Assembly: GCA_015489465.1 (NCBI GenBank)
Contig: WFZS01000081.1
Location: 1 to 43,319 of the forward strand
DNA: 43,319 bases
Direction: 5' to 3'
DNA from: Bacteroidales bacterium
GTDB lineage: Bacteria; Bacteroidota; Bacteroidia; Bacteroidales; F082
Shown: positions 2,435-23,300 of the stretch, piece by piece
How the letters are laid out: every line of letters starts with the position of its first letter
How positions within the stretch are numbered: the stretch's first letter is position 1
The notes under the pieces: generated by a model
What the model saw: the letters and a program-made list of their open reading frames with translations, nothing else
Database searches by the model: none
What the model was told of the DNA's origin: nothing
Translations under genes and position numbers: made by a program

Positions 2435-3619
2435 ATGAAAAGGATATTACTTTTTGCAATTTCGATTTTGATATTTGCCGCGTGCAATGCCTCAGGTAAA
2501 ACTGTTATTTATAAAATAACCGTTAAGAATCCGGTAAATATCAACAGACGGCATCAAACCGTTGAGGTTTCGCTTACCTCGTTGGGTATTGACATACCGG
2601 AAGTTGAAAAATTCGGCATTACCGATGAAAAAGGTAATATTATTGTTTTTCAACATTATGATTCCGACTATGACGGAAAAAACGATGCCATACTTTTTCA
2701 AACCGACATTAAAGCTAATGAGTCAAAAACTTTCATTTTAAAACCGTTAAAAAAACAACCGGAATTTAACTCTAAAGTCTATTCGCGTTTTGTTCCGGAA
2801 AGAACCGATGATTATGCCTGGGAAAACGATAAAGTGGCTTTCAGAACATTCGGACCCGATGCACAGCGGCGTTATGAAAAAGGCGATCCTACGGGAACCC
2901 TTACAAGCGGTATCGATTGTTGGCTTAAACGTGTTGACTATCCTATAATTAATAAATGGTATGAAAAAGCCACTACCGGTAAAGGTTCTTATCATAAAGA
3001 TACGGGCGAGGGTTTTGACGATTATCATGTAGGAGCAAGCAGGGGTTGCGGAGGAACGGGAGTTTGGAGTGGTGATACGCTTTGGGTTTCCAAAAATTTT
3101 ACCTCTTGGAAACGCCTTGCAAACGGGCCGGTCAGAACGGAGTTTGTATTGGATTACGCGGAATGGAATGCTAACGGAAAACCGGTAAAAGAACAAAAAA
3201 TCATTTCGCTTGATGCGGGCGGTAATTTGTCGAAAATTAAAGTGAAGGTAAAAGGTGTTGACACTTTAACGGCGGGAATAACATTGCATGAAAACACCGG
3301 CAAAATAGTGGCGGAACCTGACGAAGGTTGGTTTACTTATGTCGAAACCCACAGAGAAAAAGATTATATCATCGGAACCGCCATAGTCTTGAACCCTGAA
3401 AACATTGCGGGATATAGAACTTATATTTCACCTGTACCTGACCACAGCCATCTTTTTGTTGATATGAAAGTAAACAGCGGAGAAGTTGTTTATTACTCAG
3501 GATTTTATTGGAGTAAAAGCGGTCAATTTAAAGATGAAAAAGAGTGGGAAGAGTATTTGCACAACTTTTCGGTAGAAATACAAAATCCTTTGGTTGTTAA
3601 AATTGAAAAAATAAAATGA
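2435..3619 (+). CDS. DUF4861 family lipoprotein
   Basis: This 394-residue protein begins with a lipoprotein signal peptide (hydrophobic stretch ending FAAC, Cys17 the lipidated residue), so it should sit in the periplasm or outer membrane. The body resembles DUF4861, a family of unknown reaction often encoded beside polysaccharide lyases and unsaturated glucuronyl hydrolases in Bacteroidota. Recognisable parts are the WLKRVDYPIINKWY block, GEGFDDYHVGASRGCGG, and an NLSKIKVKVKGVDTL beta-rich section. Neighbours (GH2, two lyases, GH88) suggest a role in processing uronic-acid oligosaccharides; that is inference from context. The stop overlaps the GH2 start (ATGA). Family recognition is from memory of the motif pattern, hence moderate confidence. 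Confidence 0.78.
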   Translation: MKRILLFAISILIFAACNASGKTVIYKITVKNPVNINRRHQTVEVSLTSLGIDIPEVEKFGITDEKGNIIVFQHYDSDYDGKNDAILFQTDIKANESKTFILKPLKKQPEFNSKVYSRFVPERTDDYAWENDKVAFRTFGPDAQRRYEKGDPTGTLTSGIDCWLKRVDYPIINKWYEKATTGKGSYHKDTGEGFDDYHVGASRGCGGTGVWSGDTLWVSKNFTSWKRLANGPVRTEFVLDYAEWNANGKPVKEQKIISLDAGGNLSKIKVKVKGVDTLTAGITLHENTGKIVAEPDEGWFTYVETHREKDYIIGTAIVLNPENIAGYRTYISPVPDHSHLFVDMKVNSGEVVYYSGFYWSKSGQFKDEKEWEEYLHNFSVEIQNPLVVKIEKIK

Positions 3620-6096
3620 AGAAGTTAATTGTAATAATATTATCTCTTTTTATTGCACACGGTTTGCAATCTCAAAACGGAGAGTCAAAGAGGCTGTTAA
3701 AAGATTGGTGGTTTTATAAAACCGACATCGGAAGTCCGTGGGAAGCTTTTCGCAGCGAGCGGTTAAGCAAGCTGCCTGTTTTTAAAAAAGTTCAATTGCC
3801 TCATACCTATAATGCTTTTGATGCCGTGGATCCCGACGGTCCTTATTATCAGGGTCCGGCTTGGTATTATACTTTTATAAAAATCGATACGCTCTATCCG
3901 AAAGGGAGGATTTTACTGCATTTCGAAGGTGCGGGTCAAGAGTCGGATGTATATGTTTTTTTGAAAAAGGCGGGGCATCACAAAGGAGGGTATGACGAGT
4001 GGAGTGTTGATATTACGGAATATGCAGAGAGGTATTTTGTGGAATATCCCGAAGGTGTCGGAAGGGTTCCCAAAGGTCTGTTACCTGTTGCCGTTAGAAC
4101 CGATAATTCCAGGGATGTCAACAGAATACCGTCGGATTTAAGCGATTTTACAATTTACGGCGGCTTGTACCGCAATGTTTGGCTGGAATATGTTCCGCAA
4201 GTTTATTTTAACTCGATACATGTCGATTATACTTTGAGTAAAAACTTTAAAAAGGCTTTTGTTACACTTTCGGGTAATCTTAAAAACTTTTCCGGTGAAA
4301 AAGGTAAAAACGCAGTGGTAACCATAACGGTAAAAGATGAAAACGGAAAACGGATAAAACAGGTAAAAGAACAAATTCCCGTTAAAGAAGGAAAAACGGA
4401 AATCGGTTCTTTTAAAATAAAAAACGTAAAACTTTGGTCGCCGGATAATCCGTTTTTGTACACTTTTAATGTTGAATTGAATTTCCACGGAACTATCCAA
4501 AAGAAATCTTTCAAAACCGGATTTAAACATTTTGAATTTGAAGATCACGGTCCTTTTTTCCTGAACGGGAAAAGGTTGTTGTTGAGAGGCACATCTTATC
4601 ATGAAGATTATGCGGGGCGGGGAGCAGCGGGAACAAAAGAGTTGATGAGGAAAGAGTTTTTGATGATGAAAGAAATGGGTGTTAACTTTATACGTTTGGG
4701 ACATTATCAGCAACCGCAATATGTTCTTGACCTTTGCGACTCGTTGGGAATATTGGTTTGGGAAGAAATACCGTGGTGCCGCGGCGGACTGGGAAATGAC
4801 GAGTACAGACAACAAGCCCGCAGGATGCTCACAAACCTTATAAATCAACATTATAATCATGCTTCCGTCATCATCTGGGGCTTGGGAAATGAAAACGATT
4901 GGCCGGGTGACTTTCCGCAATTTGAAAAAGATTCCATAATAGCTTTTATGAAATCGTTAAATAATCTTGCTCACAGTCTTGATCCGGTACGGAAAACGGC
5001 AATACGCCGTTGCGACTTTTGTAAAAATATTGTTGATGTTTATTCGCCGTCAATATGGGCGGGTTGGTACCGTGGAAAATATACTTCATACAAAGAGGTG
5101 AGCAAAATGGAGGCGGATAAGGTTAAACATTTTTTGCATGCCGAGTGGGGAGCAAGTATGCATCCCGAAAGGCATTCGGAAAATCCCGATAAAGGTCTCG
5201 GTAAAATTGCAAATGTTAATGAAGCCGACGAACGAAGCGGAGACTTCCTTTTAACGGGAGGAGAGCCGAGGGTTTCAAAAGACGGCGATTGGTCTGAAAC
5301 TTACGGATGTAACCTTATCGACTGGACTTTAAAAGAACAGGAAACAATGGATTGGTTAACGGGTTCGGCGTTTTGGATTTTTAAAGATTTTTCCACACCG
5401 TTGCGTCCGGACAATCCGATTCCTTACGTTAATGAAAAAGGTGCCGTTCAAAGGGATTTCACTCCGAAAGATGCATATTACGTATTTCAATCGTATTGGA
5501 CGGATAAGCCGATGGCTCACATTTATAGCCATACCTGGAAAACCAGATGGGGTGCCGAAAACGAAAATAAATTGATAAAAGTGTATTCCAACTGTGATGT
5601 TGCCGAGCTTTTCCTCAACGGTAAAAGTTTGGGAAAACGAAAAAGAAACAGCCGGGATTTCCCGGCTGCCGGATTGAGGTGGAAAACTACATTTAAACCC
5701 GGATTAAACAAAGTAAAAGTGGTAGCTCAAAAAGGTGATGTAACCGTAATCGATTCGGTTACATTTATATACCAAACGGAGAAGTGGGGGAAACCGGTAC
5801 AATTAAAATTCGAACCCGCTGAACGTATTAACGACAGTACTTTTTCGGTTTGTGTAAAAGCTTATGATAAGGATAATATCTTTTGTCCAGACGCAAAAAA
5901 TGTTGTCATATTCGGTATTGCCGGAAAAGGAAAGCTTTTGGATGATTTGGGGACTATTAACGGTTCGAGAAAAATTCAAATGTCAAACGGAAAAGCATGT
6001 ATTAAAATTGTTACAAATGAAAAAGCTGTTGTTAGTGCCGTAAGTAAAAATACGTCGTCAATTTTCATTAAAATAAATAATAACCTAAAACCTTAA
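3616..6096 (+). CDS. Glycoside hydrolase family 2 protein (exo-beta-glycosidase)
   Basis: The 826-residue protein has a cleavable signal peptide (MKKLIVIILSLFIAHGLQSQ) and the GH2 layout: jelly-roll sugar-binding domain (about 30-200), immunoglobulin-like domain (about 205-305), TIM barrel (about 315-600) and a C-terminal beta domain. The acid/base is Glu426 in WGLGNEND and the likely nucleophile is Glu510 in HAEWGAS; both are intact. GH2 covers beta-galactosidases, beta-glucuronidases and beta-mannosidases, and the sequence alone does not tell which. Given the uronate-directed neighbours, beta-glucuronidase or beta-galactosidase activity on side chains or released oligosaccharides is plausible. 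It is coupled to the DUF4861 gene by a 4-bp overlap and is 4 bp from the downstream lyase gene. Confidence 0.92.
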   Translation: MKKLIVIILSLFIAHGLQSQNGESKRLLKDWWFYKTDIGSPWEAFRSERLSKLPVFKKVQLPHTYNAFDAVDPDGPYYQGPAWYYTFIKIDTLYPKGRILLHFEGAGQESDVYVFLKKAGHHKGGYDEWSVDITEYAERYFVEYPEGVGRVPKGLLPVAVRTDNSRDVNRIPSDLSDFTIYGGLYRNVWLEYVPQVYFNSIHVDYTLSKNFKKAFVTLSGNLKNFSGEKGKNAVVTITVKDENGKRIKQVKEQIPVKEGKTEIGSFKIKNVKLWSPDNPFLYTFNVELNFHGTIQKKSFKTGFKHFEFEDHGPFFLNGKRLLLRGTSYHEDYAGRGAAGTKELMRKEFLMMKEMGVNFIRLGHYQQPQYVLDLCDSLGILVWEEIPWCRGGLGNDEYRQQARRMLTNLINQHYNHASVIIWGLGNENDWPGDFPQFEKDSIIAFMKSLNNLAHSLDPVRKTAIRRCDFCKNIVDVYSPSIWAGWYRGKYTSYKEVSKMEADKVKHFLHAEWGASMHPERHSENPDKGLGKIANVNEADERSGDFLLTGGEPRVSKDGDWSETYGCNLIDWTLKEQETMDWLTGSAFWIFKDFSTPLRPDNPIPYVNEKGAVQRDFTPKDAYYVFQSYWTDKPMAHIYSHTWKTRWGAENENKLIKVYSNCDVAELFLNGKSLGKRKRNSRDFPAAGLRWKTTFKPGLNKVKVVAQKGDVTVIDSVTFIYQTEKWGKPVQLKFEPAERINDSTFSVCVKAYDKDNIFCPDAKNVVIFGIAGKGKLLDDLGTINGSRKIQMSNGKACIKIVTNEKAVVSAVSKNTSSIFIKINNNLKP

Positions 6097-6100
6097 AACT

Positions 6101-7159
6101 ATGAAAAAGATTTTTTTATTAATTGTTTCAACCGCATTGGCAATAGTAAATGTGGTTGCGCAAAACACTTTAAAAGCCGACGGGCCAGGTGATACTTACG
6201 AACTTATTACGCAATATTTGGCTCCCGACGGATTTCCTTTGGAACCACCCGACTGCAGTCATGAAGCTTTTGGAAGACACATTGACGAGGTTTGGGATTC
6301 AACTCTAAATGAGTATGTTTTCAGATTTTTTATTCACGTAGTTCCCGATGATGACAGGTGTATTCATCACGACAGGCAACGAAACGAAATTAAGGTTTAT
6401 ACACCCTCGCCCGACAGCCTGAAAGGTTTCAGCGGCGATAAAATGGTTTATACCTGGAAGATGAAACTTCCTGAAGGCTTTCAATCTTCTTCAAGTTTTA
6501 CACACATCCACCAGCTTAAAGCGATAGGTGGAGATGAAGACGGAATGCCTATCATTACTTTGACTCCCAGGAAAGGTTCGCCTGACAGAATTCAGTTGCG
6601 CTTTGCTGCACATTCGTCACCACAAACCTTATCGGCTTTTCCCATAACCGATATTACAGGAAAATGGGTTAACATAATTGAAAAGGTAACATACGGAGAA
6701 AACGGTTCTTATGAAATTACCATTAATGATTTGGCCGACGGTTCTCAAATATTTCATTACAAAAAAGTGGGTTTACGAATGTGGCGTACCGGTACCGAGT
6801 TTGTACGACCGAAATGGGGAATATACAGAAAATTGAGTCATCCGGAAGATTTACGTGACGAGGAAATTCTTATGAATGAATTTTATATTAAAAAGGTGTC
6901 TGCAACTTCGATAAAAGAAAGTGAATTTGAGAACAATCTTACGATTTATCCCAATCCTGCAAAAGACAAAATTTATTACAGGTCTGATGATGGTAAACTG
7001 AAATTTGAAGGAATATTTAATGCAATGGGTAAACCTGTTACCGGCGCTAAAAATTCGGGTAACGAAATAATTTTGGGTAACCAACCCGCAGGTCTGTATT
7101 TTCTGAAATTTAGAAACGGCAATACCGTGTTTTTTAAAAAAGTGTTAATCATAGGATAG
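6101..7159 (+). CDS. Secreted jelly-roll polysaccharide lyase (PL28-like) with T9SS sorting domain
   Basis: The 352-residue product has a signal peptide (about 1-20), a catalytic beta-jelly-roll (about 30-265) and a T9SS type A sorting domain (about 279-352, starting TIYPNPAKDK). The jelly roll carries the three-strand active-site signature of the heparin-lyase-I/PL7/PL20/PL28 fold: DRQRNEIKVY at 91-100, THIHQLK at 134-140 and RPKWGIYR at 236-243. The pattern looks closest to PL28 ulvan lyases or a glucuronan lyase, but the exact family cannot be fixed by eye. It is expected to be exported through SprA and anchored or released at the cell surface, making the first cuts in a uronic-acid polymer. 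It is last in the larEBC-DUF4861-GH2 operon and overlaps the convergent PL38-like gene by 15 bp. Confidence 0.75.
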   Translation: MKKIFLLIVSTALAIVNVVAQNTLKADGPGDTYELITQYLAPDGFPLEPPDCSHEAFGRHIDEVWDSTLNEYVFRFFIHVVPDDDRCIHHDRQRNEIKVYTPSPDSLKGFSGDKMVYTWKMKLPEGFQSSSSFTHIHQLKAIGGDEDGMPIITLTPRKGSPDRIQLRFAAHSSPQTLSAFPITDITGKWVNIIEKVTYGENGSYEITINDLADGSQIFHYKKVGLRMWRTGTEFVRPKWGIYRKLSHPEDLRDEEILMNEFYIKKVSATSIKESEFENNLTIYPNPAKDKIYYRSDDGKLKFEGIFNAMGKPVTGAKNSGNEIILGNQPAGLYFLKFRNGNTVFFKKVLIIG

Positions 7160-8356
7160 TTTCAGATATTCAAACCAAATTACCGGATTTCTTACAGGCA
7201 TATTTCTTATCACTTCACTGTTTTTATAAAAATGCCTGTAAGATTTCCATATATTAAACCATCCGGGTTTTCCGTACTCAACGGATGAGAAAAGCATGGA
7301 AGGTTGTCCTGCCGGCCAATAATCCCAATACATTACATCGGGTTTGTAAGGCCATTCGGTTTTGTCTTTTATGAAGGGAGCCATAAATTCCACGGCTTTT
7401 TTAACTGATTTGCCGTCTCCGGTTTGATAATTCCAAAGGTTATTATCTTTATCCGAAAGCAGCATGGTGTTAATAACCATCCCCTCCAAATTGAACAGGG
7501 AATAGCTGTAAGGCTTTGTCCGTGCAAGCTCTTCGGGAAAACTGCCGTCAGCGGCAATTTGATTCGGGATTATTTGTTTTGTGAATTTTTCGCGGCAAAG
7601 TTCAAGAGCTTTTTTATCATTTAAAAACCGTGCGTATGCTGAAACTTGACTAACCCACCAGGTGCTGTGATTATTGGGATGATTGCTTTCTTTTTTTCCG
7701 AAACCGGAATTTATTAACCATTGTTCGTACTCGTAAAACCAGTTTTTAATCTTTCTTAAATCCATTTCGGAAATAAACCCGTATTCCTCCAGCACTTTAA
7801 CGGACTGAGCAACTTCCATAAGGTGAATGCCGTCGATTATCCCGATATATCTTCCTTTATAACGACCGTGTATAGCTTGTGAATACTGCAAATTCGGATT
7901 CATCTTTGTCGAATCGTTTATAAACCATGCTTTGAGATGAGGTATTGTCGCAAGAGCATATTTTGCATTTTTTGTTATTAAATATGCCGAAGTCAGATTG
8001 CCCGTTATCGTGCCGAATCTTATAAGAAGTTTACGGTGTTCGTTAAAGTTATCCGGATTTGACATGCCGTCTCTTCTGATATAAGGACCTCCGGGATTTT
8101 CCGGGTCGGGCCACCAATAATCGCCCTCCGAAAAAAAGTCGTGTTTGGTGCCTTCACTGCGAGGAGATGTAACCGATGTAATTGTTATGGGTTTTTCATG
8201 TAAGTTTTTATCTGCAAACATCAATACGCTGTCTTTTAAAACTGTTATCGCTTTCTCCTTGAATTTGAAATTATTATTGTTATTGCGACAACCGGAAAGT
8301 ATCAAATAGAATGATACCGTCAATAAAAAAGGGTATTTTATCAATTTAACTGACAT
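7145..8356 (-). CDS. Alginate-lyase-superfamily lipoprotein (PL38-like)
   Basis: The 403-residue protein begins with a lipoprotein signal peptide ending ILSGC (Cys23), then a run of five asparagines. The body matches the (alpha/alpha) toroid alginate-lyase family (Pfam Alginate_lyase): SEGDYWWPDPENPGGPYIRR near 77-95, AIHGRYKGRYIG near 161-172 and the NNHSTWW active-site motif at 228-234, where an Asn and His of this motif contribute to catalysis in related enzymes. Bacteroidota proteins of this type include PL38 endo-beta-1,4-glucuronan lyases, which fits the GH88 neighbour. The substrate could also be alginate or another uronan. The gene is 3 bp downstream of GH88, so they are co-transcribed. 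Its 3' end overlaps that of the opposing jelly-roll lyase gene by 15 bp. Confidence 0.8.
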   Translation of the reverse strand: MSVKLIKYPFLLTVSFYLILSGCRNNNNNFKFKEKAITVLKDSVLMFADKNLHEKPITITSVTSPRSEGTKHDFFSEGDYWWPDPENPGGPYIRRDGMSNPDNFNEHRKLLIRFGTITGNLTSAYLITKNAKYALATIPHLKAWFINDSTKMNPNLQYSQAIHGRYKGRYIGIIDGIHLMEVAQSVKVLEEYGFISEMDLRKIKNWFYEYEQWLINSGFGKKESNHPNNHSTWWVSQVSAYARFLNDKKALELCREKFTKQIIPNQIAADGSFPEELARTKPYSYSLFNLEGMVINTMLLSDKDNNLWNYQTGDGKSVKKAVEFMAPFIKDKTEWPYKPDVMYWDYWPAGQPSMLFSSVEYGKPGWFNIWKSYRHFYKNSEVIRNMPVRNPVIWFEYLKLSYD

Positions 8357-8359
8357 ATT

Positions 8360-9529
8360 TTATTGTTTTCCTGATATTGTATCCCGCCTGTAAACAGCTT
8401 CAAGAAAATAGTAATCGGCGTAAATAATAGGTACGTCAATTTCGGAGTTGGCAGGATAGTTTCCCGTTGAATGATCAAGGATGAAATATTTTTTAGGAAA
8501 TGTACCGGGTGTTTGATAATATTTTACAAGATTGTTTAATATTTTATTTGCCGTAGTTCTGTAATAATTGCTGTTTTCAGCTGAATATTCACTTAACTCG
8601 AAAAGTGCTGAACTTATAATTGCGGCAGCAGAGGCATCACGTGGAGCGTTTTCATAGGAAGGAAGGGAAAAATCCCAATACGGGATGAGGTCATCCGGTA
8701 AATTTTTATTTGAAAGGATATAATGTGCAATATTTTGTGCCTGTTCCAAATATCTTTTGAAACGAGTAAATCTGTATGCCATTGTAAAGCCGTAAAGTCC
8801 CCATGCCTGTCCCCTAGCCCATGCCGAGCTGTCGGAATATCCCTGATGAGTTGTTTTTTTAATAACTTTTCCGGTAACCGAGTCATAATCTACCACATGC
8901 CATGAGCTGTAATCTTTTCTGAAATGGTTTTTCATGGTTTTGTCTGCATGGGAAACGGCAATTTTGTAATATGTCGAATCGTGTGTTTGTTCAAATGCCC
9001 AAAACAACAATTCAAGGTTCATCATGTTATCAATAATTACAGGATATTCCCATTGGTTTTTGTGATGGTCCCACGAACGTACACAACCTACTTCGGGGTT
9101 ATATCTTGTTGCTAAAGTTTTGGCACTTTCAAGCAGTATATTTTTGTATTTTTTATTGTTAGTTATTTTATATCCGTTTCCGTAACTGCAAAACATTTTA
9201 AATCCCATGTCATGGGTTGTTCCATTGTCTTTTTGGTTTTTCAGAAGACCGGTATGTTTTTCGGCTTCCGTTAAATAACACGTGTCGCCGGTTATTTCAT
9301 AAGCATACCAAAGGCATCCGGGATAAAAACCGCTGGTCCAGTCACCCGGAGAAACAAATTCTATTTCATTGTTGATTATTGTTCGCGGATTTTTGTCGAA
9401 ATCTCTGTAATATTCACACGATTTGTGAAATTTTGAAAACACATCTCTTTCGGTACCTGTAATGTTTTTACAAGACTCTACAAAAACAATAAACAACAAA
9501 ATGAAAAAAAACAAATGGAACTTTTTCAT
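8360..9529 (-). CDS. GH88 unsaturated glucuronyl hydrolase lipoprotein
   Basis: GH88 enzymes hydrate the C4-C5 double bond that lyases leave at the non-reducing end, so that the unsaturated uronate rearranges and is released. The 389-residue protein has a lipoprotein signal (VFVESC, Cys20) and a six-hairpin toroid. The two key aspartates are visible as Asp107 in THDMGF and Asp167 in VIIDNMMNLELLFWA, and the substrate-binding block is SDSSAWARGQAWGLYG at 232-247. I start at the ATG at 9529; a TTG one codon upstream is unlikely. A GC-rich hairpin lies between this gene and the beta-helix gene upstream. Unsaturated products of the two lyases in this window are its expected substrates. Confidence 0.92.
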   Translation of the reverse strand: MKKFHLFFFILLFIVFVESCKNITGTERDVFSKFHKSCEYYRDFDKNPRTIINNEIEFVSPGDWTSGFYPGCLWYAYEITGDTCYLTEAEKHTGLLKNQKDNGTTHDMGFKMFCSYGNGYKITNNKKYKNILLESAKTLATRYNPEVGCVRSWDHHKNQWEYPVIIDNMMNLELLFWAFEQTHDSTYYKIAVSHADKTMKNHFRKDYSSWHVVDYDSVTGKVIKKTTHQGYSDSSAWARGQAWGLYGFTMAYRFTRFKRYLEQAQNIAHYILSNKNLPDDLIPYWDFSLPSYENAPRDASAAAIISSALFELSEYSAENSNYYRTTANKILNNLVKYYQTPGTFPKKYFILDHSTGNYPANSEIDVPIIYADYYFLEAVYRRDTISGKQ

Positions 9530-9552
9530 CAATAAATGTTATATGAAGTTTG

Positions 9553-9607: not shown

Positions 9608-11158
9608 TTATTTTGAAATAACCATCTTGCCTGATGAAACGTTATTAAGATAATTTACGGTAAACATATATACCCCGTCCGGAAGTTCTTTGTTTACTTC
9701 CCAGGTAAATGTATTTTCTCCTTTTTGCATATGACCAGCATCAATGGAAGCTACATTTTGTCCGGTTATATTGTAAATGTTAATGCTGACATTTGAAGCT
9801 TTGGGAATAGTAAACTTAAATGTTGCTACCGATTTAACGGGATTGGGGTAAACAGTGGTGTTTGCTGCATCAGAGGCGTAATTTTCACCCACTCCCCAAA
9901 ATTCGGGGAACCATTTTAAGTCGCCGAGAGGTTTGTTGCCTTCGGCAGCTGAATAAGATTGATATGAGTGTGCATAACCTGCATCCACATTTTCTATACC
10001 TATGTCGTCAGGCCAGTTGTTCGGCATCGGGTCGGGTTGAGGATTTGTGTAAATGGCATGTAAGAAATCCCAGGGGATACCGGGCATTTTGTTGAAATCA
10101 ACCACCTCTTCAATATATGCATTTGCGGTATCTGCACCCAGTACACTTTTTACCAACGGTGCCAAAACCATAGGTTTGTAAATAGTGTCGATGCTGTTGA
10201 AAAATTCAATAAGATCGGGTGTAAATGCAAAATTATTGTTATGAATTTCAAGTTGGGTATCGTCAAAAATTGTATCCATGGTTACCATGTAGATATGTAA
10301 ATTGTCGGGATACGGACCGGTCTGTTCGGGGTCGTTTAATCTGTCACCGCCATATTCACCGTTTATAACAAGGTTGTTGGTAAGTTTGGCATGGTGTACT
10401 TTGGCAAAAGCAAAAACCCCGTGCATGCCTTGGTTATTAACCACCGTAACATGGTCGAATTCACAATAGTTGATTTCTCCTCCCATATTCCTCAATACAC
10501 GGTCTTGCATGTAATAGACTGTAGTATTTTTTACAACGATAGTATCGACATAGTATCCGCGGGTATCTACAAGGCGTCCGTTACCGTTATAAGCTGCGTA
10601 GTTTCCTGTTTTAGCTGCAACACAGTTTTCCATGTAGAGTTTAATGCTGTCAGCTCTTATTTGCACGGAACATGCTTTGTCGTATTCGAACAAGCAACCT
10701 TTTAAGATAACCCTTGTATTGGTACCACCCACTCTGAAACCTCCCCATTTAGGGTTGGCATCAGGTCCGTTTGCATTGGACAAGTGGATGTTTTTAAGAA
10801 CAACATCACCTTTAGTGTTTATCAACTTCGGGTAATGATTACTTGCATCTTTTTGCGCATAGAGAAAAGGGAGAAAACCATCACCGTCGGCAGCACGGAG
10901 GTATAATATTCTGTGCAGGTTAAGCTCCTTAGCCACAGGGTACAAGCCGTTTCTTTCGAGTTCGTAAATCGTGTAAGGATCTACAGGGTCACCGTTATCC
11001 AAGGTGTCACCTAAGATTACGGAACTCAGTTCTGTTCCGCTTGGAACTTGAACAACCCTCTGTCCCATAACGGAAACGGAAAGTATTGACAAACCGATAA
11101 TAAAAAGTGCTTTTGTACCGGTTTTCAAAAAATTAATTAAAAATGTAAAGTTTTTCAT
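9608..11158 (-). CDS. T9SS-exported right-handed beta-helix protein (receptor partner candidate)
   Basis: I do not recognise a named enzyme family. The 516-residue protein has an N-terminal signal peptide (about 1-32), then a beta-helix-like region (about 85-280) with stacked short strands and asparagine turns (GDVVLKNIHLSN, TRVILKGCLFEY, SIKLYMENCVAA, TIVVKNTTVYY). A loop-rich section (about 280-430) with aromatic residues follows, and the C-terminus is a T9SS type A sorting domain (about 435-516, TTVYPNPVKSVATFKFTIP to GKMVISK). It lies 33 bp after the TonB-dependent receptor stop, in the position where SusD-like proteins usually sit. It could bind glycan at the surface and feed the receptor, or be a lyase of a beta-helix family; no lyase catalytic motif is obvious. 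Surface location is a confident inference, function is not. Confidence 0.8.
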   Translation of the reverse strand: MKNFTFLINFLKTGTKALFIIGLSILSVSVMGQRVVQVPSGTELSSVILGDTLDNGDPVDPYTIYELERNGLYPVAKELNLHRILYLRAADGDGFLPFLYAQKDASNHYPKLINTKGDVVLKNIHLSNANGPDANPKWGGFRVGGTNTRVILKGCLFEYDKACSVQIRADSIKLYMENCVAAKTGNYAAYNGNGRLVDTRGYYVDTIVVKNTTVYYMQDRVLRNMGGEINYCEFDHVTVVNNQGMHGVFAFAKVHHAKLTNNLVINGEYGGDRLNDPEQTGPYPDNLHIYMVTMDTIFDDTQLEIHNNNFAFTPDLIEFFNSIDTIYKPMVLAPLVKSVLGADTANAYIEEVVDFNKMPGIPWDFLHAIYTNPQPDPMPNNWPDDIGIENVDAGYAHSYQSYSAAEGNKPLGDLKWFPEFWGVGENYASDAANTTVYPNPVKSVATFKFTIPKASNVSINIYNITGQNVASIDAGHMQKGENTFTWEVNKELPDGVYMFTVNYLNNVSSGKMVISK

Positions 11159-11191: not shown

Positions 11192-14059
11192 TTATAATTC
11201 AGCTTTTAATCCCAGGAAAACTATCATCCCGTATTCTTGAATTCTGTAAGGATTATTGGTGTTTTTATTTATGTATGATTCTTCACGTTGATTATTCAGG
11301 TTGGTAAAACTTAAAAACGCTTTTAAATGACTGTTAATCTTTTGGCTGAACGATGCATCCCATCTCCAAAATTTCCATGCGTAGATATCCTGAATTTCTT
11401 GTGTTCTGGGAATTTTAAGATATGAATCCTGGAAAACTCCTGAGATTCTTCCCGAAAAACCTTTGTAATCGTAACCGAAAGAAATATTAAAAATAAACGG
11501 AACCTGACTGGGTACGGAAATCTCCCGCTGTTGTGAAACCGCATAACTTTCGGTTATAATCATTCCTGTAACGGGGTCACGGTAAGTTGTATCCACTGTC
11601 GTGTACCAATATTTTGTTGATTTCGAGAATATCCTGCTGAAATTTGCACTTAAAACAATCCCGTTAAACGGTTTGGGAAGCATCTTAAGGTTGGTTTGCA
11701 AATCGACTTCAAAACCGTAAACTTCAGCTTCGGGACTGTTGTCATATGTCGTCAGATAGAAGTTTTTACGACCCGGAAAGCCCAATGCTTCCGCTATACT
11801 GTCGCTGGCGATAAAGTAATCCTGTACAATGTAAAATATGTTTTTGAGGTCTTTATAAAAACCTCCTATTGAAAGTAATCCGTATTTGGTATTATACAAT
11901 GATATATTAAGGTCGTAATTCCATGCTTCCATATGTTTTAGATTGGGATTTCCGGCAAGAATCTTATTAGTGTTTACATCAATAAGTGTTGCAGGTGAAA
12001 CATAATTAAAATTGGGTCTGGCAATTGTTTTTACGGCGGCTGCCCTTATCATCAACCAATCAAGCGGTTTGTAAATGATATGAAAATTGGGCAAATAATC
12101 GGTGTACTTTTGATAGGTGGTGGTGTCTTTTACATTGCCTGTTTCTCCGTAGCTTCCCGATAATGCGGAATATTTTCCACCGTATCTGTTGTCGGAGTGT
12201 TCCATTCTTACACCTGCAATAAGAGTAAGTCTTTTACCCAGGTTTATTTTACCCATTAAATAGCCTGCGCCGATAGTTTCGTGTGCCGTATAATCTTTTA
12301 CGTCTTTTCTTCTGTCGTGATAATAATAATCTTTTTGTGCGCTATACCAGTCGTGAGTATAACTTCTGTTAAAGTTGAGATTAAAAGGATATTCACCGTC
12401 AAAAACACTTCCGTCTATGGGTTTGTAATCGTAAAAGAAAGTTTTTGCGGCAAGCAGTCCGTTTGATGTATAAAATACTTCGTTAGGGTAACGTTCTATT
12501 GCATCCGCTAAAACCGGTCCGCCGAGATAATATTTAGGTTCATAATCGTAGTTGTATTCGTTTACCCTGTCGAGAACGGTATATTTTCCACCGGCTTTGA
12601 TAAACCCGCTGATATCAGCACCTATGTTGAAAGGATATTTTGTATTTAATATGGCCGAATAATATTTTTCATTAACGGAAGTTGTTGCCGCAGATGACTG
12701 ACGCAATCTGGCTTCGTCGTAATTTTTATTCGCCTCGTTAATCCATTTGTCGAAGTCATTATCGGTAATGGAAGTACCGGCATAAGCATTAATATCTCTG
12801 AAAACCATTTCGGCATCCAACGGTTTTTCATTATTGGTTACCGAAGTTGACAGGTTCCAATCCAATAAAAGTTTTCCCGCATTATGATCACCTCTTAATG
12901 CAAAAGAGAGGATGTCAAGGTTTATGTTTTTTTCTTTATTGTAATACCTGACGTCATTATACTCTCTGGGTGAATATCTTTCGGATTGGGAATAAATATC
13001 TCTTTTGGTTTTGCTGTAAAAAGTATAAAAAGAGATGTTACCGCCTTTAATATTATAATCGAGGTTTATGCTGCCGCCGGCTCTTTTTCTGTTTTCAACT
13101 ATATCCGAAAGTCTGAAATCTTTGTAATACAGTTCATTGTCTTGGGTTGTAAAGCTTGAACCCAAAAGGTTATTACTTCTGTCAATTTGCTCCATGTTGC
13201 CCTGTACTATCAAGCCTAGTTTTTTATTTAAAAACCTTTTTGAAAAATTAGCGGCGGCCCTGTAATTGTTAAAACTGTTGTCAAAGCCGTTGTATCCACC
13301 GTCCAGCCTTATTGAACCTTTTGTTTTGTCAACGGCTTTTTTAATAATGAGGTTAACCGTTCCGCCTACTGCATCACCGTCCATATCCGGTGTGGGAGAT
13401 TTAAAGACTTCAATACCTGCCAAAAGGTCGGGTGATATCATACTCAAGTCAACGGACCTGTCTTTTGTGGAATTGGAAGGTAACTTGGAGCCGTTTATTG
13501 TAATTGCCGTAAATTTCGGTGAAAGTCCTCGTAACATAATTTTTTGTCCTTCTCCGGCATTACGTTGCACGGCCACTCCCGAAATACGGCCAACGGCTTC
13601 GGCTGCATTCACATCGGGTAGTTCCCTGATTTTGTTTTCCGAAACGACATTAACCAGAGCATCTGAATTAAGCTGTTGGTTTATAGCCTTTTGTTGTCCC
13701 AGCAACTGACCCGAAATAACAACTTCGGACAATCCTATCCGGACCGGCTTCATTGTTACGTTTTGTTCAATTTTATTGCCGGGTTTAATATTTAAAACAA
13801 CGGTTTTATCTTCGTAACCCATATACGAATAAACCAAAGTGTCTTTTCCTGCCGGTACGTTTGATAATATGTACTTTCCGTAAGGGTCGGTAATTGTTCC
13901 GATAGTTGTACCTTTTACGATTATTGTTGCGCCAGGTAAACTTGAACCCGATTCTTCCGTGACCGTTCCGTAAACAATACCGGAACCTTGAGCAAAAGTG
14001 TTGCCTGTACTAAAAATAAGAAGGCTTGTTAGCGTTAATAAAAGTAAATTTCTTGTCAT
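11192..14059 (-). CDS. TonB-dependent receptor (SusD-less type)
   Basis: This is an outer-membrane TonB-dependent transporter, probably for oligosaccharides released by the local lyases. The 955-residue protein has a signal peptide (1-23, cleaved after FAQG or nearby), a carboxypeptidase-regulatory-like domain (about 27-112, GTVTEESGSSLPGATIIVKG), a plug domain (about 130-245, with ELPDVNAAEAVGRISGVAVQ and MLRGLSPKFTAITING) and a 22-strand barrel to the end. It is smaller than typical SusC (over 1000 residues) and has no SusD partner; it resembles the TonB-Xanth-Caul type receptors. The operator repeats and a long leader lie upstream. It is followed after 33 bp by the beta-helix gene. Confidence 0.93.
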   Translation of the reverse strand: MTRNLLLLTLTSLLIFSTGNTFAQGSGIVYGTVTEESGSSLPGATIIVKGTTIGTITDPYGKYILSNVPAGKDTLVYSYMGYEDKTVVLNIKPGNKIEQNVTMKPVRIGLSEVVISGQLLGQQKAINQQLNSDALVNVVSENKIRELPDVNAAEAVGRISGVAVQRNAGEGQKIMLRGLSPKFTAITINGSKLPSNSTKDRSVDLSMISPDLLAGIEVFKSPTPDMDGDAVGGTVNLIIKKAVDKTKGSIRLDGGYNGFDNSFNNYRAAANFSKRFLNKKLGLIVQGNMEQIDRSNNLLGSSFTTQDNELYYKDFRLSDIVENRKRAGGSINLDYNIKGGNISFYTFYSKTKRDIYSQSERYSPREYNDVRYYNKEKNINLDILSFALRGDHNAGKLLLDWNLSTSVTNNEKPLDAEMVFRDINAYAGTSITDNDFDKWINEANKNYDEARLRQSSAATTSVNEKYYSAILNTKYPFNIGADISGFIKAGGKYTVLDRVNEYNYDYEPKYYLGGPVLADAIERYPNEVFYTSNGLLAAKTFFYDYKPIDGSVFDGEYPFNLNFNRSYTHDWYSAQKDYYYHDRRKDVKDYTAHETIGAGYLMGKINLGKRLTLIAGVRMEHSDNRYGGKYSALSGSYGETGNVKDTTTYQKYTDYLPNFHIIYKPLDWLMIRAAAVKTIARPNFNYVSPATLIDVNTNKILAGNPNLKHMEAWNYDLNISLYNTKYGLLSIGGFYKDLKNIFYIVQDYFIASDSIAEALGFPGRKNFYLTTYDNSPEAEVYGFEVDLQTNLKMLPKPFNGIVLSANFSRIFSKSTKYWYTTVDTTYRDPVTGMIITESYAVSQQREISVPSQVPFIFNISFGYDYKGFSGRISGVFQDSYLKIPRTQEIQDIYAWKFWRWDASFSQKINSHLKAFLSFTNLNNQREESYINKNTNNPYRIQEYGMIVFLGLKAEL

Positions 14060-14164: not shown

Positions 14165-14194
14165 CTATTGACGGTTTTGTTTGACTGCCGTAAA

Positions 14195-14202
14195 CAAAGG
14201 TA
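14195..14202 (-). promoter_or_regulatory. -7 promoter element of the TonB-dependent receptor gene
   Basis: On the minus strand this reads TACCTTTG, an exact match to the Bacteroidota -7 consensus TAnnTTTG. No TTG is present 19 bp upstream, as expected for an activator-dependent promoter. The implied start of transcription gives a leader of roughly 130 nt before the receptor ATG at 14059. The four direct repeats begin about 25 bp upstream of it. Confidence 0.65.
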
Positions 14203-14227
14203 AAGCGTGAACGAAAAATTCGATTTT

Positions 14228-14311
14228 GATTATGTTGCAAATAATTAAGGTTATGTTACAACGGGTAGTGGAAATGTTTCAAATAGTTTAGATAATGTTA
14301 CTTTTTTTATG
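14228..14311 (-). repeat. Four 21-bp-phased direct repeats, putative HTCS operator
   Basis: ATGTTGCAA (14232), ATGTTACAA (14253), ATGTTTCAA (14274) and ATGTTACTT (14295) start at exactly 21-bp intervals. Aligned as 21-mers each begins with G[AG], giving the consensus GRWWATGTTnCAA on the + strand, or TTGnAACATWWYC on the strand of the receptor gene. Two helical turns is the half-site spacing used by AraC-family activators, and the adjacent HTCS ends in an AraC-type domain. The array lies just upstream of the receptor -7 box. The intergenic segment 14060-14353 holds nothing else but the leader described separately. Confidence 0.8.
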
Positions 14312-14353
14312 TCACGGGGAGAAGGAATGTTTTGATTACCGGAAAAGGAAATT

Positions 14354-17300
14354 TTACTTTTTGTTTTTTTGAATGAAACGTGAAGGTGTTTCACCGTAAT
14401 ACTCTTTAAAAGAGGTGATAAAATAACTGGTGCTTTTGAATCCCGCCCGTTCCGCTACTTCGTTAACATTATATTCGTTTTGCAAAAGCAATTTGCGTGC
14501 GTATTTCATTCTTTCCGATTTTATGATTTCACTGGGATTATTATCGAATATTGCTCTGAATTTACGGAATAGTTGGGTCCTGCTCATTCCCAGTTCACGG
14601 GCTAGTTTTTCCACTGAAAAACCGGGATTGGAAATATTTGCCTTTATAATTTCAAATACCTTTTCTATGAATTTTTTATCTCCAGTATTTTCAATTTTAT
14701 CTATTTCTTCAATAATATTGAGTTTTGAATATTTTCTTTTCAGCTTTTCGCGTTGCAATATTAAATTGTTAACCACAGCTTTTAAATAGTCGTCATCAAA
14801 AGGTTTTTCAATGTAAAAATCGGCACCGGTTTCAGCACCTTTTATTTTATGTTCTACATCGGCTTTTGCCGTTAAAAGTATAACCGGAATGTGCGAAGTG
14901 GCATGATGTTGTTTTATGCGCGCACAAAGCTCGATACCGTCGATTTCGGGCATCATGATATCCGAAATTATAATGTCGGGCATTTGCGTTTCGGCAATTT
15001 CAAGACCCTCTTTACCGTCCTTGGCATTATAAACTTTAAATTCTTTTTCAAATAAAGTTTTTAAATAATTTCTTAAATCGTCGCTGTCTTCAACAATTAA
15101 AATCGATTTGCTTTTACCGTTTTCATTACCGTTAATTCCCGGAATATCTTTTATTTCATTGTCTTCCGTTTCGGTAAAATGTGATATGGGCTCTTCGCTG
15201 CCAATTTTTTCATCTTTATAAAATGATTTGTTGACAGGAATTTTTACGGTAAAAACAGTGAAACCGTTTTTATTACTTTCAACATTGATACTTCCTTTAT
15301 GAACCTCAACCATTCTTTTTGTAAAAGCCAATCCTATTCCTGTGCCCGTAACTTCGGTGTCGGCTTTGTCAACATGATAAAATCTTTCAAAAATCTTTTG
15401 ATAATCTTTTTCGTTTATGCTTTTCCCGGTATTGGCAACTTTGAATGTCAGAATTCCATCTTCCGAAACATCAACGGTTATCTTAATAGTGCCGCCTTTA
15501 TCAACAAATTTTACGGCATTTGATAAAAGGTTGAAAGCAATTTTGTTAAATATGTCTTTATCATACCAGGTTTCAACGTTTCCGGTATTATTTTCAAAAA
15601 TCAGTGTAACACCTTTTTCTTTTATCTTGAACTCAAAGCACGCGATGTTGTCTTCAATATTTTTAATGATGTTATTCGGAGTAATATGTAATTTAACCAA
15701 ACCCTGTTCGGCTTTCCGGAAGTCCATTAATTCTTGCAAAAGAGATAACAGGCGCTTTGTATTTTTCGACATAATTTCCACCAGGTACCTTTGATCCGGA
15801 GAGAGTTTCCCGTCTTTTTTTAATTTCTCAAGAGGACTTGAAATCAATGTTAAAGGTGTTCTGATTTCGTGCGAAATATTGGTGAAAAACCTCAACTTCG
15901 TTTGATTCATTTGCTGAATCCTTTGCTTATCACGCCTTTCGAGTTCCAGCAGATTTTTTTGCTGTATTCTTGTTATCATTATTTTCCTGAAAAAGAGGAA
16001 AAGTAAGGTTAAAATTATGATGTATATGATGTATGCCCATATTGTTTTCCAAGGTGGCGGTAAAATCGTTATATGCAATGAAGCTCCTTTGGTATTCCAG
16101 TAATTATCATTGTTCGAACCGATAACTCTGAATGTATATTCGCCCGGCGGGATGTTTGTATAAACGGCTTTGCGGTTTGTCCCCGCAAAAATCCAACCGT
16201 TGTCAAACCCTTCAAGTTTGTATTTGTATTGATTTTTACCCGGAGAAGTGTAGTTGAGTGCTACATAACTCAAAGTAATAGCAGACTGATTATGTTTTAA
16301 AGTAATGTTTTTTAAAAACAGAATGTCGCCGGGAATTAATGAGGAATCTTTGGAGACATCTATTTTATTGTTGAATAAACTTAATCCCGTAATATAAACG
16401 GGAGGAATTCTTTTGTTTTCGGTTATTTCTTCGGGTTTGAAAATATTAAATCCGTTGTGACCGCCGAACAACAAATATCCGTCATGTGTTTTTAGCGAGA
16501 CATACGGTTCGAACTCGTTACCTTGAAGTCCGTCTTGTACATCATAATGATGAAAGATATTTTTTTCATAATCCAATTTATTCAAGCCGTTAGATGTGCT
16601 TATCCAAATGTTGTTTTCATCGTCTATCTGCAAACTCCTTACCCAGTTTGATGATAATCCGTTGTTTTCGTTGTAATGGTAAATTTTGTTGTTTTTAAGA
16701 TTGAATTTGTCCAACCCCATCTTGGTTCCGACCCAAAGGTTTCCGTATTTGTCAATTTGTAAAGCGTAAATGTCGTTGCAGCTGACGGTATTAGAATCGT
16801 TGGGGTTGTTAACAAACCTTTTTATCGTCCCCGTTTTTTTATTAAACAAAAAAATACCATGATCTTTGGTTCCTATCCAAAGCGTGTCTTTCCCTTGTTG
16901 AATAAGGCATCTGGGTCTTGAAATTTTGTTGACTGTTTTAAACGTCTTTTTTACCGGATCGAATTTTTGAAGATTAATATAATTTCCTACCCATATTTCA
17001 CCTTCCTTGTCTTTAAAAACCACATAAACCCTGTTGTCTGCCAAACTGTTTTTATTATCATTATGTTTAAAATAACTAAAGCTGTCGGTGGATTTATTGA
17101 AAATCGCCAAACCTTCACGAAAAGTTCCCAGCAAAAGATTTTTTTTATCCAACTCACAAATTGAAAAGATATAATCGTCTTTAAGTGTATTGTTTTTTGT
17201 GCCGGCACGGTAGTTTTTAAAAGTTCCTTTATTCTTATCAAATCTGCTTAACCCTCCGCCTTCTTTAGTGCCTACCCAAATATAACCGTCGCTGTCTTCC

Positions 17301-18436
17301 GCCAACGCCCTTATGTTATTGTTAAACAATCCGTTTTCTTTAAAGTTAACATTGTAAAGTATAAAACGTTTACGTGCTTTGTCCAGGTAGTTTACACCGC
17401 TGTTGTATGTTCCTATCCATATTATATTTTGTGAACTTTTAAATCCCGTAATCAAAGCTTTACTGTTTATCCCTTCCGGATTGTAGATATCGTATGGGTA
17501 ATATTTTAATTTATCATTGTTTTCGTCATAAAGATAAAGTCCGTCGTCACGTACTAAAACAAAAAACTTGCCCGGTGTGTCTTCAATAATACCGAAAACA
17601 CGGTTTGATGAAGAAAAACCGTTGTCAGTGCTTATATGTTTTTTGATTGTTTTTCCGGGTGCACCGTTAAAACCGTATAAGCCTGTATTTTCGGTTCCTA
17701 TCCAAAAGTTGTTTTTGCTGTCTTGCATTATCACCCTTACCTTGTTTATTCCTTTATCTTTACAATAACGGGTAAAAGTGCTGTCGGTATAATCAAATTT
17801 GAAAACTCCTTTTCCGGAGCCTATCCAAATATTGCTTTTATTGTCTTTAAAAATGGTGTTTATTTTAGAACTTTCCTTGCCGTTATTTTTAATCAATGTT
17901 TTTAGCTTTTTTTCCGGTGGGTTCCAAGTAAACAGCCCGTTAGAAGTACCTATCCATAAAACGTTGTTTTTGTCAAAACAAAGTGAATTTATTATAATAT
18001 TCCGTGAATCCGGCGAAAGAGTATCTTTACTTAAAACAAGAGAAAATTTTCTTTTGAATCTATCGAAATATACCAGACCTTGTCTTGACGCTATCCATAA
18101 ATTGGGTTTTTTAATATCTTCCAGGATGTAATCTACGGAAACGTCATGTAAGGAATTTGCTGAGCCCGGAAAATTTTTAAAAGTTTCAAAATTATATGCA
18201 TCATATTTTGAAAGTCCTTCCTCGGTGGCAAACCATATAAATCCCAAACTGTCTTCCATAATGTGGTTTACCCGGTTGGAAGGAAGTCCGTCATCACGTG
18301 TAAGATGATTAAAATTCAGAGTGAAATTTTGCGAAAAGAGAAATGCCGGAAGTATAAAGAGCGATATTGTAATTAAATAAATTACGGGAAACGAATAATT
18401 TGCAGTTTTTACCGGATTATTAATATTTTCTCTCAT
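14354..18436 (-). CDS. Hybrid two-component sensor/AraC-type regulator (HTCS)
   Basis: This 1360-residue protein combines a whole signalling pathway in one chain. In order: signal/anchor (about 10-36), two seven-bladed beta-propellers of reg_prop repeats (about 45-710, many GLPSN/IWIGT-type blades), a Y_Y_Y domain (about 725-780), one membrane segment (about 792-816), histidine kinase with His856 in NISHEIRTPL and GTGIGLAF ATP lid, receiver with Asp1159 in IISDIMMPE, and an AraC-type HTH (about 1258-1358). It should sense an oligosaccharide in the periplasm and activate the locus from the cytoplasm. All signature residues are present. It is encoded upstream of and in the same direction as the receptor, whose promoter carries the phased repeats. 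Confidence 0.96.
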   Translation of the reverse strand: MRENINNPVKTANYSFPVIYLITISLFILPAFLFSQNFTLNFNHLTRDDGLPSNRVNHIMEDSLGFIWFATEEGLSKYDAYNFETFKNFPGSANSLHDVSVDYILEDIKKPNLWIASRQGLVYFDRFKRKFSLVLSKDTLSPDSRNIIINSLCFDKNNVLWIGTSNGLFTWNPPEKKLKTLIKNNGKESSKINTIFKDNKSNIWIGSGKGVFKFDYTDSTFTRYCKDKGINKVRVIMQDSKNNFWIGTENTGLYGFNGAPGKTIKKHISTDNGFSSSNRVFGIIEDTPGKFFVLVRDDGLYLYDENNDKLKYYPYDIYNPEGINSKALITGFKSSQNIIWIGTYNSGVNYLDKARKRFILYNVNFKENGLFNNNIRALAEDSDGYIWVGTKEGGGLSRFDKNKGTFKNYRAGTKNNTLKDDYIFSICELDKKNLLLGTFREGLAIFNKSTDSFSYFKHNDNKNSLADNRVYVVFKDKEGEIWVGNYINLQKFDPVKKTFKTVNKISRPRCLIQQGKDTLWIGTKDHGIFLFNKKTGTIKRFVNNPNDSNTVSCNDIYALQIDKYGNLWVGTKMGLDKFNLKNNKIYHYNENNGLSSNWVRSLQIDDENNIWISTSNGLNKLDYEKNIFHHYDVQDGLQGNEFEPYVSLKTHDGYLLFGGHNGFNIFKPEEITENKRIPPVYITGLSLFNNKIDVSKDSSLIPGDILFLKNITLKHNQSAITLSYVALNYTSPGKNQYKYKLEGFDNGWIFAGTNRKAVYTNIPPGEYTFRVIGSNNDNYWNTKGASLHITILPPPWKTIWAYIIYIIILTLLFLFFRKIMITRIQQKNLLELERRDKQRIQQMNQTKLRFFTNISHEIRTPLTLISSPLEKLKKDGKLSPDQRYLVEIMSKNTKRLLSLLQELMDFRKAEQGLVKLHITPNNIIKNIEDNIACFEFKIKEKGVTLIFENNTGNVETWYDKDIFNKIAFNLLSNAVKFVDKGGTIKITVDVSEDGILTFKVANTGKSINEKDYQKIFERFYHVDKADTEVTGTGIGLAFTKRMVEVHKGSINVESNKNGFTVFTVKIPVNKSFYKDEKIGSEEPISHFTETEDNEIKDIPGINGNENGKSKSILIVEDSDDLRNYLKTLFEKEFKVYNAKDGKEGLEIAETQMPDIIISDIMMPEIDGIELCARIKQHHATSHIPVILLTAKADVEHKIKGAETGADFYIEKPFDDDYLKAVVNNLILQREKLKRKYSKLNIIEEIDKIENTGDKKFIEKVFEIIKANISNPGFSVEKLARELGMSRTQLFRKFRAIFDNNPSEIIKSERMKYARKLLLQNEYNVNEVAERAGFKSTSYFITSFKEYYGETPSRFIQKNKK

Positions 18437-20380: not shown

Positions 20381-23300
20381 GTGAGGAGATTTAATTACTA
20401 CTTGAAGATATTTTCTTTCGTGATTATTTTGTTGGCGGGTACTTCCGGCTTACGGAATGTTTATGCCCAAAATACAACGCCTTCGGATACTACTAACGTT
20501 AACGATACCACAATAAATCTTATTTATCCTTTTAACGACTTCACCGGAAACCCATTCCTGGACAATGTTTCAAGTCCTCTGTTTTTAAAAAATCCTTCCA
20601 ATATAAAACAGGAGATAATTTACAATCCCGAAACAAATACTTACGAGTTTGTGAATAAGGTTGGTAATTTTACTTATCGACCGCCTACCACCATGGATTT
20701 TAAGGATTACCAAAAGTACAGGTTAAATAAGGATATTTACGATTATTGGAAAGAAAGAGCCGGAGTGGAGGGAACTTCGGAGGGAAAACGTTTAATACCT
20801 AAGCTGTATGTCGGGGGAAAAGCTTTTGAAACCATTTTCGGCAGCAACACTATTGATATAAGACCTCAAGGTTCGGCGGAAGTGAGTTTCGGTATTTTGG
20901 TGAATAAACGAGACGATCCTAATCTCGATTACAGACAACGGCGTGTGGCAAGTTTCGATTTTAACGAATCCATACAAATGAATGTTATCGCCAAAATAGG
21001 TGATAAGATTGAGTTTAAAGCCAATTACAATACCGAATCATCGTTTAATTTCGAGAATACTTTGAAATTAAAATACGAAGGCGATGAAGATGAAATCATA
21101 AAATTGATAGAAGCCGGTAATGTAAGCCTTCCTTTACGTTCTTCTTTAATCAGGGGCAGTCAAAGTTTGTTCGGTATCAAAACAATCTTACAGTTCGGTA
21201 AAACAACCGTTACCGCCGTTTATTCCGAGCAACAGAGTGAAACCAAAAATATCAAGGTTGAAGGTGGTGCCCAGTCCAACAGTTTCCAGCTTAAAGCTTT
21301 GGATTACGAAGAAAACAGACACTTTTTCCTCAGCCAGTATTTTCGTGATAATTACGAAAGAGCTTTAAAAGATTTGCCTGTAATTTCTTCCGATATAGTC
21401 ATCAATAAAGTGGAGGTTTGGGTGACTAATATAGGTCCGGCAACACAGGAAAACAGAAATATCGTTGCTTTTACCGATTTGGGCGAAAATAATCCTGCAA
21501 AAATTTACAACGAACATATTTCACCTATACCCGGGAAAGTTTATCCGTCCAATTTTTCCAATGATTTGCTATACCAAATGGATACATTGCAGCTTCGTGA
21601 TGTTAATAACGTATCCAACTATCTCTCGGGCGACCCGTTTAATATCGGTCAACAAGGTTATATGGTGGCGGGCGAAGATTACGTCAAACTGGAAAATGCC
21701 CGTAAACTCGACCAGTCCGAATATACCGTTAATAAGAAGTTGGGGTTCATTTCTCTTAATACGTCCATTAGTGACGATCAGGTCGTTGCAGTTGCCATTC
21801 AATATTCGGTTATAGGTACAAATGAAGTTTTTCAAGTCGGTGAATTTTCCGATCAAGGTGTTACGGCTCCGAACTGTTTGATTGTGAAGCTGCTTAAAAG
21901 TAATGTGCTTAACACCAGAATGCCGATGTGGGATTTGATGATGAAAAACGTATATTCCATCGGTGCCTATCAGGTTCAGCGTAAGGATTTTATTTTTAAC
22001 ATTTTATACTCGGGTGACAAAAACGGTGTTCCCACCGGATATTTTATGGAAGGACCTTCTGATGTAAAAGGAAAGCCTCTGATCCATCTGTTTAATCTTG
22101 ACAATTTGGATAATCAGTTAAATCCTGTCCCGGGAGGTGACGGTATCTTTGATTTTATTGACAATGCAGCCACAAACGGAGGTACCATCGAATCTAAAAA
22201 CGGCAGGATATTTTTCCCGGTTTTGGAACCTTTCGGAAGTTTTGTTCACGATTCATTGTTCCCTTCCAATCCCGAACTTGCCGAAAAATATTCTTACGAT
22301 TCACTTTACACCCAAACCAAAGCTGCTGCCGAGCAATATCCAGATAAAAACAGATATATTCTCGAAGGTTTTTACCAGTCGAGTTCCGGTTCCGAAATAA
22401 GCCTTAACGCTTTAAATGTTCCTCAAGGTTCTGTTACCGTAACAGCCGGCGGTGTACCCCTTGTTGAAAATGTGGACTATACCGTGGATTACACTTTGGG
22501 ACGTGTCAGAATATTGAATGAAGGTATTTTGAACTCCGGTACACCCATCAACGTTTCATTGGAGAGTAACTCCATGTTTAACGTTCTTCAAAAAAGAATG
22601 ATGGGATTACATGTTGACCACGAGGTAAATAAAGACTTTCATATCGGAGGTACCATACTTAACCTTCACGAACGTCCATTGACACAAAAAGTTAACTATG
22701 GCGACGACCCCATTTCAAACACTATTTGGGGAATGGATTTAAGCTACAGAAAAGACTCGCGTTGGTTAACAAATATTATCGACAAACTTCCCGGCATTTC
22801 AACAAATGTGGTTTCAAAGATTCAGGCGGATGCCGAGTTTGCTCAATTTTTACCCGGACATGCAAAGGTTATAGGTAAAACGGGTGTTTCCTACATTGAC
22901 GATTTCGAAGGTGCCAAGTCCACCATTGATTTAAAATATCCTTCATCGTGGTTTTTGGCAAGTACACCCCAAGGGCAACCCGATTTGTTTCCGGAAGGTT
23001 CAAGCAGGGATCTTGACTATGGAAAAAACAGGGCGCGCTTGGCATGGTATATAATCGATCCTACGATTTTTTACAGCCGTTCAGGTAGTTTAAGGCCTCC
23101 CAATATTGATAAAGATGAAATATCGAAAAATTCTACACGTCAGGTGTTGGAAACGGAAGTTTTTCCCAATAAAGATATTCCAAACGGAAGGCCGACTACC
23201 ATACCGGTTCTCAACCTGGCTTATTATCCCGATGAAAGAGGTCCGTATAACTTTGATGTTGACGGACTTGACGAAAACGGAAAATTACAAAATCCCGAAT

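Follow-up and report, generated by a model that had tools for sequence, protein, structure and literature searches.

A four-rung 21-bp direct repeat as the probable operator of an HTCS regulator at a TonB-dependent receptor promoter in the Bacteroidales

The class II sites of AraC/XylS-family activators, such as araI1-I2 and the XylS site at Pm, are 21-bp direct repeats with the proximal half-site beside the promoter, and their regulators carry an AraC-type double HTH. Several tandem AraC-type sites also occur at the melAB promoter of E. coli, where the soluble regulator MelR works with the help of CRP. For the HTCSs of B. thetaiotaomicron, 16 motifs have been predicted, all of them direct repeats of two sites with a mean spacing of 21 bp (Ravcheev et al. 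2013, PMC3878776), and receiver-plus-DBD fragments of HTCSs shift two such susC-type promoters in EMSA (PMC11253607). An earlier note on the DNA studied here called HTCS operators poorly defined, which is at odds with these two publications.

The stretch of DNA that we analysed (the window, 43,319 nucleotides from a Bacteroidales bacterium) contains four cores at 14232-14303 in exact 21-bp steps (21, 21, 21), both when the sequence is read directly and when it is re-indexed. They are flanked by an HTCS gene, whose stop codon they follow at 50 bp, and by a TonB-dependent receptor gene. The forward-strand copies are ATGTTGCAA (14232), ATGTTACAA (14253), ATGTTTCAA (14274) and ATGTTACTT (14295), and there is no fifth copy at 14316. 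On the transcription strand the cores read, from distal to proximal toward the receptor gene, AAGTAACAT, TTGAAACAT, TTGTAACAT and TTGCAACAT, followed by 29 bp and then by TACCTTTG (Table 1). The earlier note had reported the four positions and their exact ladder, a GRWW prefix (GATT, GGTT, GGAA and GATA in the four copies) and the -7 box, all of which are found in the sequence as described; in the fourth copy the CAA part of its ATGTTnCAA-type core is lost (CTT).

Table 1. Coordinates of the repeat array, its promoter, the adjoining regulator and the presumed target operon in the window
Feature	Position	Strand	Remarks
-7 promoter box	14195-14202	-	TACCTTTG; TAnnTTTG consensus, from PMC7366714
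29-bp spacer, proximal core to -7 box	14203..14231	-	
Rung 1, promoter-proximal	14226..14246	-	core TTGCAACAT, 14232-14240; core end 29 bp before the -7 box
Rung 2	14247..14267	-	core TTGTAACAT, 14253-14261
Rung 3	14268..14288	-	core TTGAAACAT, 14274-14282
Rung 4, distal, weakest	14289..14309	-	core AAGTAACAT, 14295-14303; one mismatch to TGNAACA
TonB-dependent receptor, TIGR01782 type	11192..14059	-	first gene of presumed operon
T9SS-sorting-tail protein	9608..11158	-	second gene of presumed operon; homologue at the corresponding position in G043
GH88-type unsaturated glucuronyl hydrolase	8360..9532	-	presumed operon
Alginate-lyase-family polysaccharide lyase	7145..8356	-	presumed operon
HTCS	14354..18436	-	Reg_prop/Y_Y_Y sensor, HisKA, HATPase, receiver (SHIP motif), AraC-type HTH_18
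AraC-type DNA-binding domain of the HTCS	14369..14605	-	recognition helix SRTQLFRK

For a 9-mer at lag 21, the four copies score 32 of 36 in the 294 bp between the two genes. This score was never reached in 5000 dinucleotide shuffles evaluated at lag 21, nor in 500 evaluated at every lag from 15 to 30. The G+C content of the array region is 30%, and a repeat could arise by chance in such AT-rich DNA; the shuffles, the uniqueness of the array and its fixed distance to the -7 box (both described below) speak against this. An element acting at the RNA level is opposed by its folding, which is no better than that of shuffled sequences (z 0.10), and by the position of the array upstream of the predicted operon start. 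We give very little credence to either explanation.

The array resembles the predicted HTCS operators of Bacteroides in consisting of direct repeats with about 21 bp between sites, at the promoter of a PUL-type transport and degradation operon that adjoins the HTCS gene (PMC3878776). It differs from those motifs in having four sites, the published two plus two extra ones, in a genome that, as far as can be told, is apparently outside the 11 Bacteroides of that study. The 21-bp spacing is not new, since predicted HTCS operators have already been described with this layout (Ravcheev 2013). What is new is the doubled number of sites and the fixed distance to the -7 box, on which we found no remark in the literature searched, including the main text of PMC3878776; the general kind of operator has been published. 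The array shares the 21-bp direct repeats, the promoter-proximal half-site and the AraC-type double HTH with the AraC/XylS class II sites, but here the regulator is a membrane-bound hybrid histidine kinase and the promoter belongs to the Bacteroidetes -7 type and lacks -10 and -35 elements. The MelR sites are similar in that several AraC-type sites stand in tandem at one activated promoter, and different in spacing, in orientation and in the soluble, CRP-assisted regulator.

The regulator encoded beside the array has the full set of HTCS domains, from sensor to AraC-type HTH, in one chain. The beta-propeller sensor most resembles solved HTCS sensors (4a2l), and the receiver-DBD portion resembles 12aw; the SHIP motif in the receiver marks published REC-DBD inhibition. 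There are four HTH_18 matches in the genome, among which the protein of Table 1 is the only full-length HTCS relative found.

On the other side of the array, the receptor, T9SS, GH88-type and lyase genes run in the same direction with short gaps, and we presume them to form an operon. Their content suggests, by way of the encoded enzymes, a uronic-acid polysaccharide as the substrate. The receptor scores 77 against the SusC/RagA cut-off of 368 and passes as TIGR01782; there is no SusD among the four operon genes, and hence no SusC/SusD pair. A receptor of the TIGR01782 (TonB-Xanth-Caul) type without SusD is an unusual partner for an HTCS. A convergent block on the plus strand (2435-7159) encodes a DUF4861 protein, a GH2 enzyme and a T9SS-tailed polysaccharide lyase and may serve the same glycan pathway; it is immediately preceded by larB/larC-like genes (AIRC, nickel insertion). 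An SprA-type gene (T9SS translocon) occurs beside ruvA in 20381-27679, and several T9SS-tailed proteins are encoded in the window.

For comparison with other regulators of this family, 158 HTCS genes were collected by protein similarity, and the 196 intergenic gaps beside them were analysed with no motif assumed. Lag 21 gave the strongest repeat in 24.5 of these gaps, where a typical lag did so in about 5, and the neighbouring lags 20 and 22 formed shoulders. TTGNAACAT-like words paired at 21 bp occur beside HTCSs in Aequorivita (three species), G296 and G065.

The core word also recurs at a fixed distance from the promoter. TAnnTTTG is the Bacteroidetes -7 consensus (PMC7366714), and transcription from the window's copy would start near 14188 and run leftwards. 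The 196 gaps contain 11 cases of a TTGNAACAT word, with no more than one mismatch, whose end lies precisely 29 bp ahead of TAnnTTTG. These include groups of sister species and amount to about seven separate lineages, because Aequorivita and Sphingobacterium give three each. Shuffled sequences had a mean of 0.11 and a maximum of 1 such case at 29 bp, and never more than 3 at any distance. Distances other than 29 (range 0-68) had zero to two cases each, except 50 (29+21), with four. A profile of lag-21 similarity upstream of -7 boxes, computed without any motif, rose only diffusely, between about 16 and 47 bp. The 29-bp distance gives the proximal rung a fixed position close to the polymerase, as at a class II activator site. 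No TTTG was seen at -33 in the window promoter; it is present in three of the 34 operators of this class versus 5% elsewhere, and the -33 element is weak in Bacteroidota in any case (PMC7366714).

The core word, the 21-bp step and the 29 bp to the box combine into the pattern TGNAACA-14-TGNAACAN-29-TAnnTTTG, by which the targets of one HTCS group should be readable from sequence. Genome-wide, two rungs plus box find many more promoters, with 12 matches in G146, 8 in G391 and 11 in G361 against 0, 0 and 1 in the reversed control; these three genomes were picked beforehand for their many hits, and operators fetched by the pattern carry the 29 bp by construction. Six promoters with a two-rung TGCAACA operator and the 29-bp spacing lie within 20 kb around one HTCS in G146 (locus L281, C28:31000-50900), a compact regulon with built-in replicates that is suited to experiments. 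Elsewhere (L180, G281:C40), the gap upstream of an HTCS gene has three TGTAAC copies in exact 21-bp steps, without TAnnTTTG at 29 bp, which is possibly a case of autoregulation. The repeats next to a Nostoc hybrid kinase (L103) were rejected, as they resemble tandem repeats of the ordinary sort.

The array could instead bind another regulator, either a CRP-family activator like Cur (BT4338) or an orphan AraC-type protein of the same genome. The Cur consensus is wwwTATGTTnTAnAACATAwww (PMC11501099), and its AACAT half-site, likewise found near PUL promoters, is common to the rungs. Three further HTH_18 proteins are encoded in the genome, and some operators of the class have no HTCS in the stretch examined around them. 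Cur sites, however, are inverted repeats, and the rungs have no inverted half: their 4-5 mismatches in 14 are ordinary for the window, and the inverted half is absent across the class too, with a mean of 2.2-2.6 matches out of 6 over the 34 operators. A Cur-type palindrome, TATGTTnTAnAACATA, was therefore rejected. The pattern with its -7 box occurs once in the 2.74-Mb genome, at the window array beside the HTCS, unlike the sites of a global regulator. There is no second operator with a box elsewhere in the genome, and loose matches to the pair at other places look like AT-rich background.

The operator is also associated with the recognition helix of the HTCS. Among 148 HTCSs with an adjacent gap, the pair plus box was found in 7 of the 42 loci whose HTCS has a first recognition helix of the form SR.[QH]..R[KR] and in 1 of the 106 without it (p = 6e-4, an optimistic value because the signature was read off operator-bearing HTCSs and kinship between related species is uncorrected). 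The full operator accompanies only about a sixth of the signature-bearing HTCSs. This association ties the DNA word to the HTCS and not to a global regulator, and we consider binding by Cur or an orphan AraC-type protein improbable. The earlier note had taken the array for the operator of the adjacent HTCS, with AraC-type half-site spacing and leading up to the -7 box; the generality of lag 21, the recurrence of the core at 29 bp in other families and the match between operator and helix together support that idea.

The note had further called the array unusually clear. The ladder is indeed exact, but the striking part is the number of rungs, four in a class that almost always has two. With two good rungs and a box, 26 of 28 distinct operators stop at two, the third rung having 2-6 mismatches of 6. 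The two that have rungs three and four are the window and L278 of G289 (C79, near 5285), a four-rung TGnAACA ladder at the 29-bp distance. We set the latter aside, as it lies by an mnmA-type gene with no HTCS or receptor in its 1.5-kb flanks. When 393 genomes of the order were scanned for three rungs plus box, the window was the only mismatch-free match among the matches listed; the others mostly look like coding tandem repeats.

The locus is absent from four genomes of the same genus that were examined. The nearest HTCS, in G259, is 56% identical, and its contig ends inside the HTCS gene, before the operator region. The case for conservation rests on homologues with 34-38% identity, because the pair was not found in any close relative. 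The syntenic locus of G043, with the HTCS-receptor pair and the T9SS gene, has four 21-bp rungs in a diverged word; 0 of 5000 shuffles matched this ladder with 15- and 21-bp windows and 1 of 5000 with 9 bp, and the 29-bp distance is not kept by its nearest -7-like box (TAATTTG). The same pair in G257 has two rungs with the window's core, arranged as TGGAACAA-29-TATATTTG. Four rungs thus occur twice in this type of locus and are not obligatory. Comparison of orthologous regions, which the earlier note had proposed, does not refute the operator in these two distant relatives, with the reservation that the word in G043 has diverged.

Rungs 1 and 2 might work alone, with rungs 3 and 4 a functionless relict or a recent duplication. 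Two rungs suffice in nearly all operators of the class and in G257, and the weakest of the four is rung 4. The closest resemblance is between rungs 1 and 3 (15 of 21 positions; 28 nt of the rung 3 and rung 1 regions are 82% identical at lag 42), as a 42-bp duplication would leave it. This likeness is compatible with a duplicated dimer site and, in the less favourable case, with a 42-bp duplication that has no function. The core has nevertheless been kept in all four rungs although the intervening letters have diverged (10-15 of 21 identical from rung to rung), and four rungs are also present at the same place in G043. We regard a role for rungs 1 and 2 only as rather unlikely.

Our preferred reading, in which we have considerable confidence, is that the adjacent HTCS uses the array as its operator. 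The array would hold two tandem dimer sites, and from these the HTCS would activate the four-gene receptor/lyase operon in class II-like fashion; the earlier note had likewise suggested two dimers, or else a cooperative array. Each 21-bp rung would seat one AraC-type DNA-binding domain, its two helix-turn-helix units spanning two helical turns. All of these domains would sit on the same side of the helix and point the same way. On binding of an oligosaccharide by the periplasmic sensor, the HTCS would phosphorylate its own receiver and the DNA-binding domain would be freed; we infer that binding and activation depend on this phosphorylation. A dimer on rungs 1 and 2 would contact RNA polymerase from a site whose 29-bp distance to the -7 box is fixed, and in this class II-like manner may substitute for the missing -33 element. 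A second dimer on rungs 3 and 4 would add cooperativity. Leftward transcription would then cover the genes of the receptor, T9SS protein, glucuronyl hydrolase and lyase as one operon.

More tentatively, and with slightly less than even confidence, we propose that two membrane-bound HTCS dimers sit side by side at the four-rung operator and give a sharper, cooperative response than a two-rung operator would, and that a general rule may hold across the Bacteroidota by which the proximal TGnAACA rung ends 29 bp upstream of TAnnTTTG. HTCSs are major switches of glycan use in the Bacteroidota, and few of their DNA sites have been tested. Promoters with four rungs and promoters with two offer a natural comparison for asking whether the number of sites sets the sharpness of the response.
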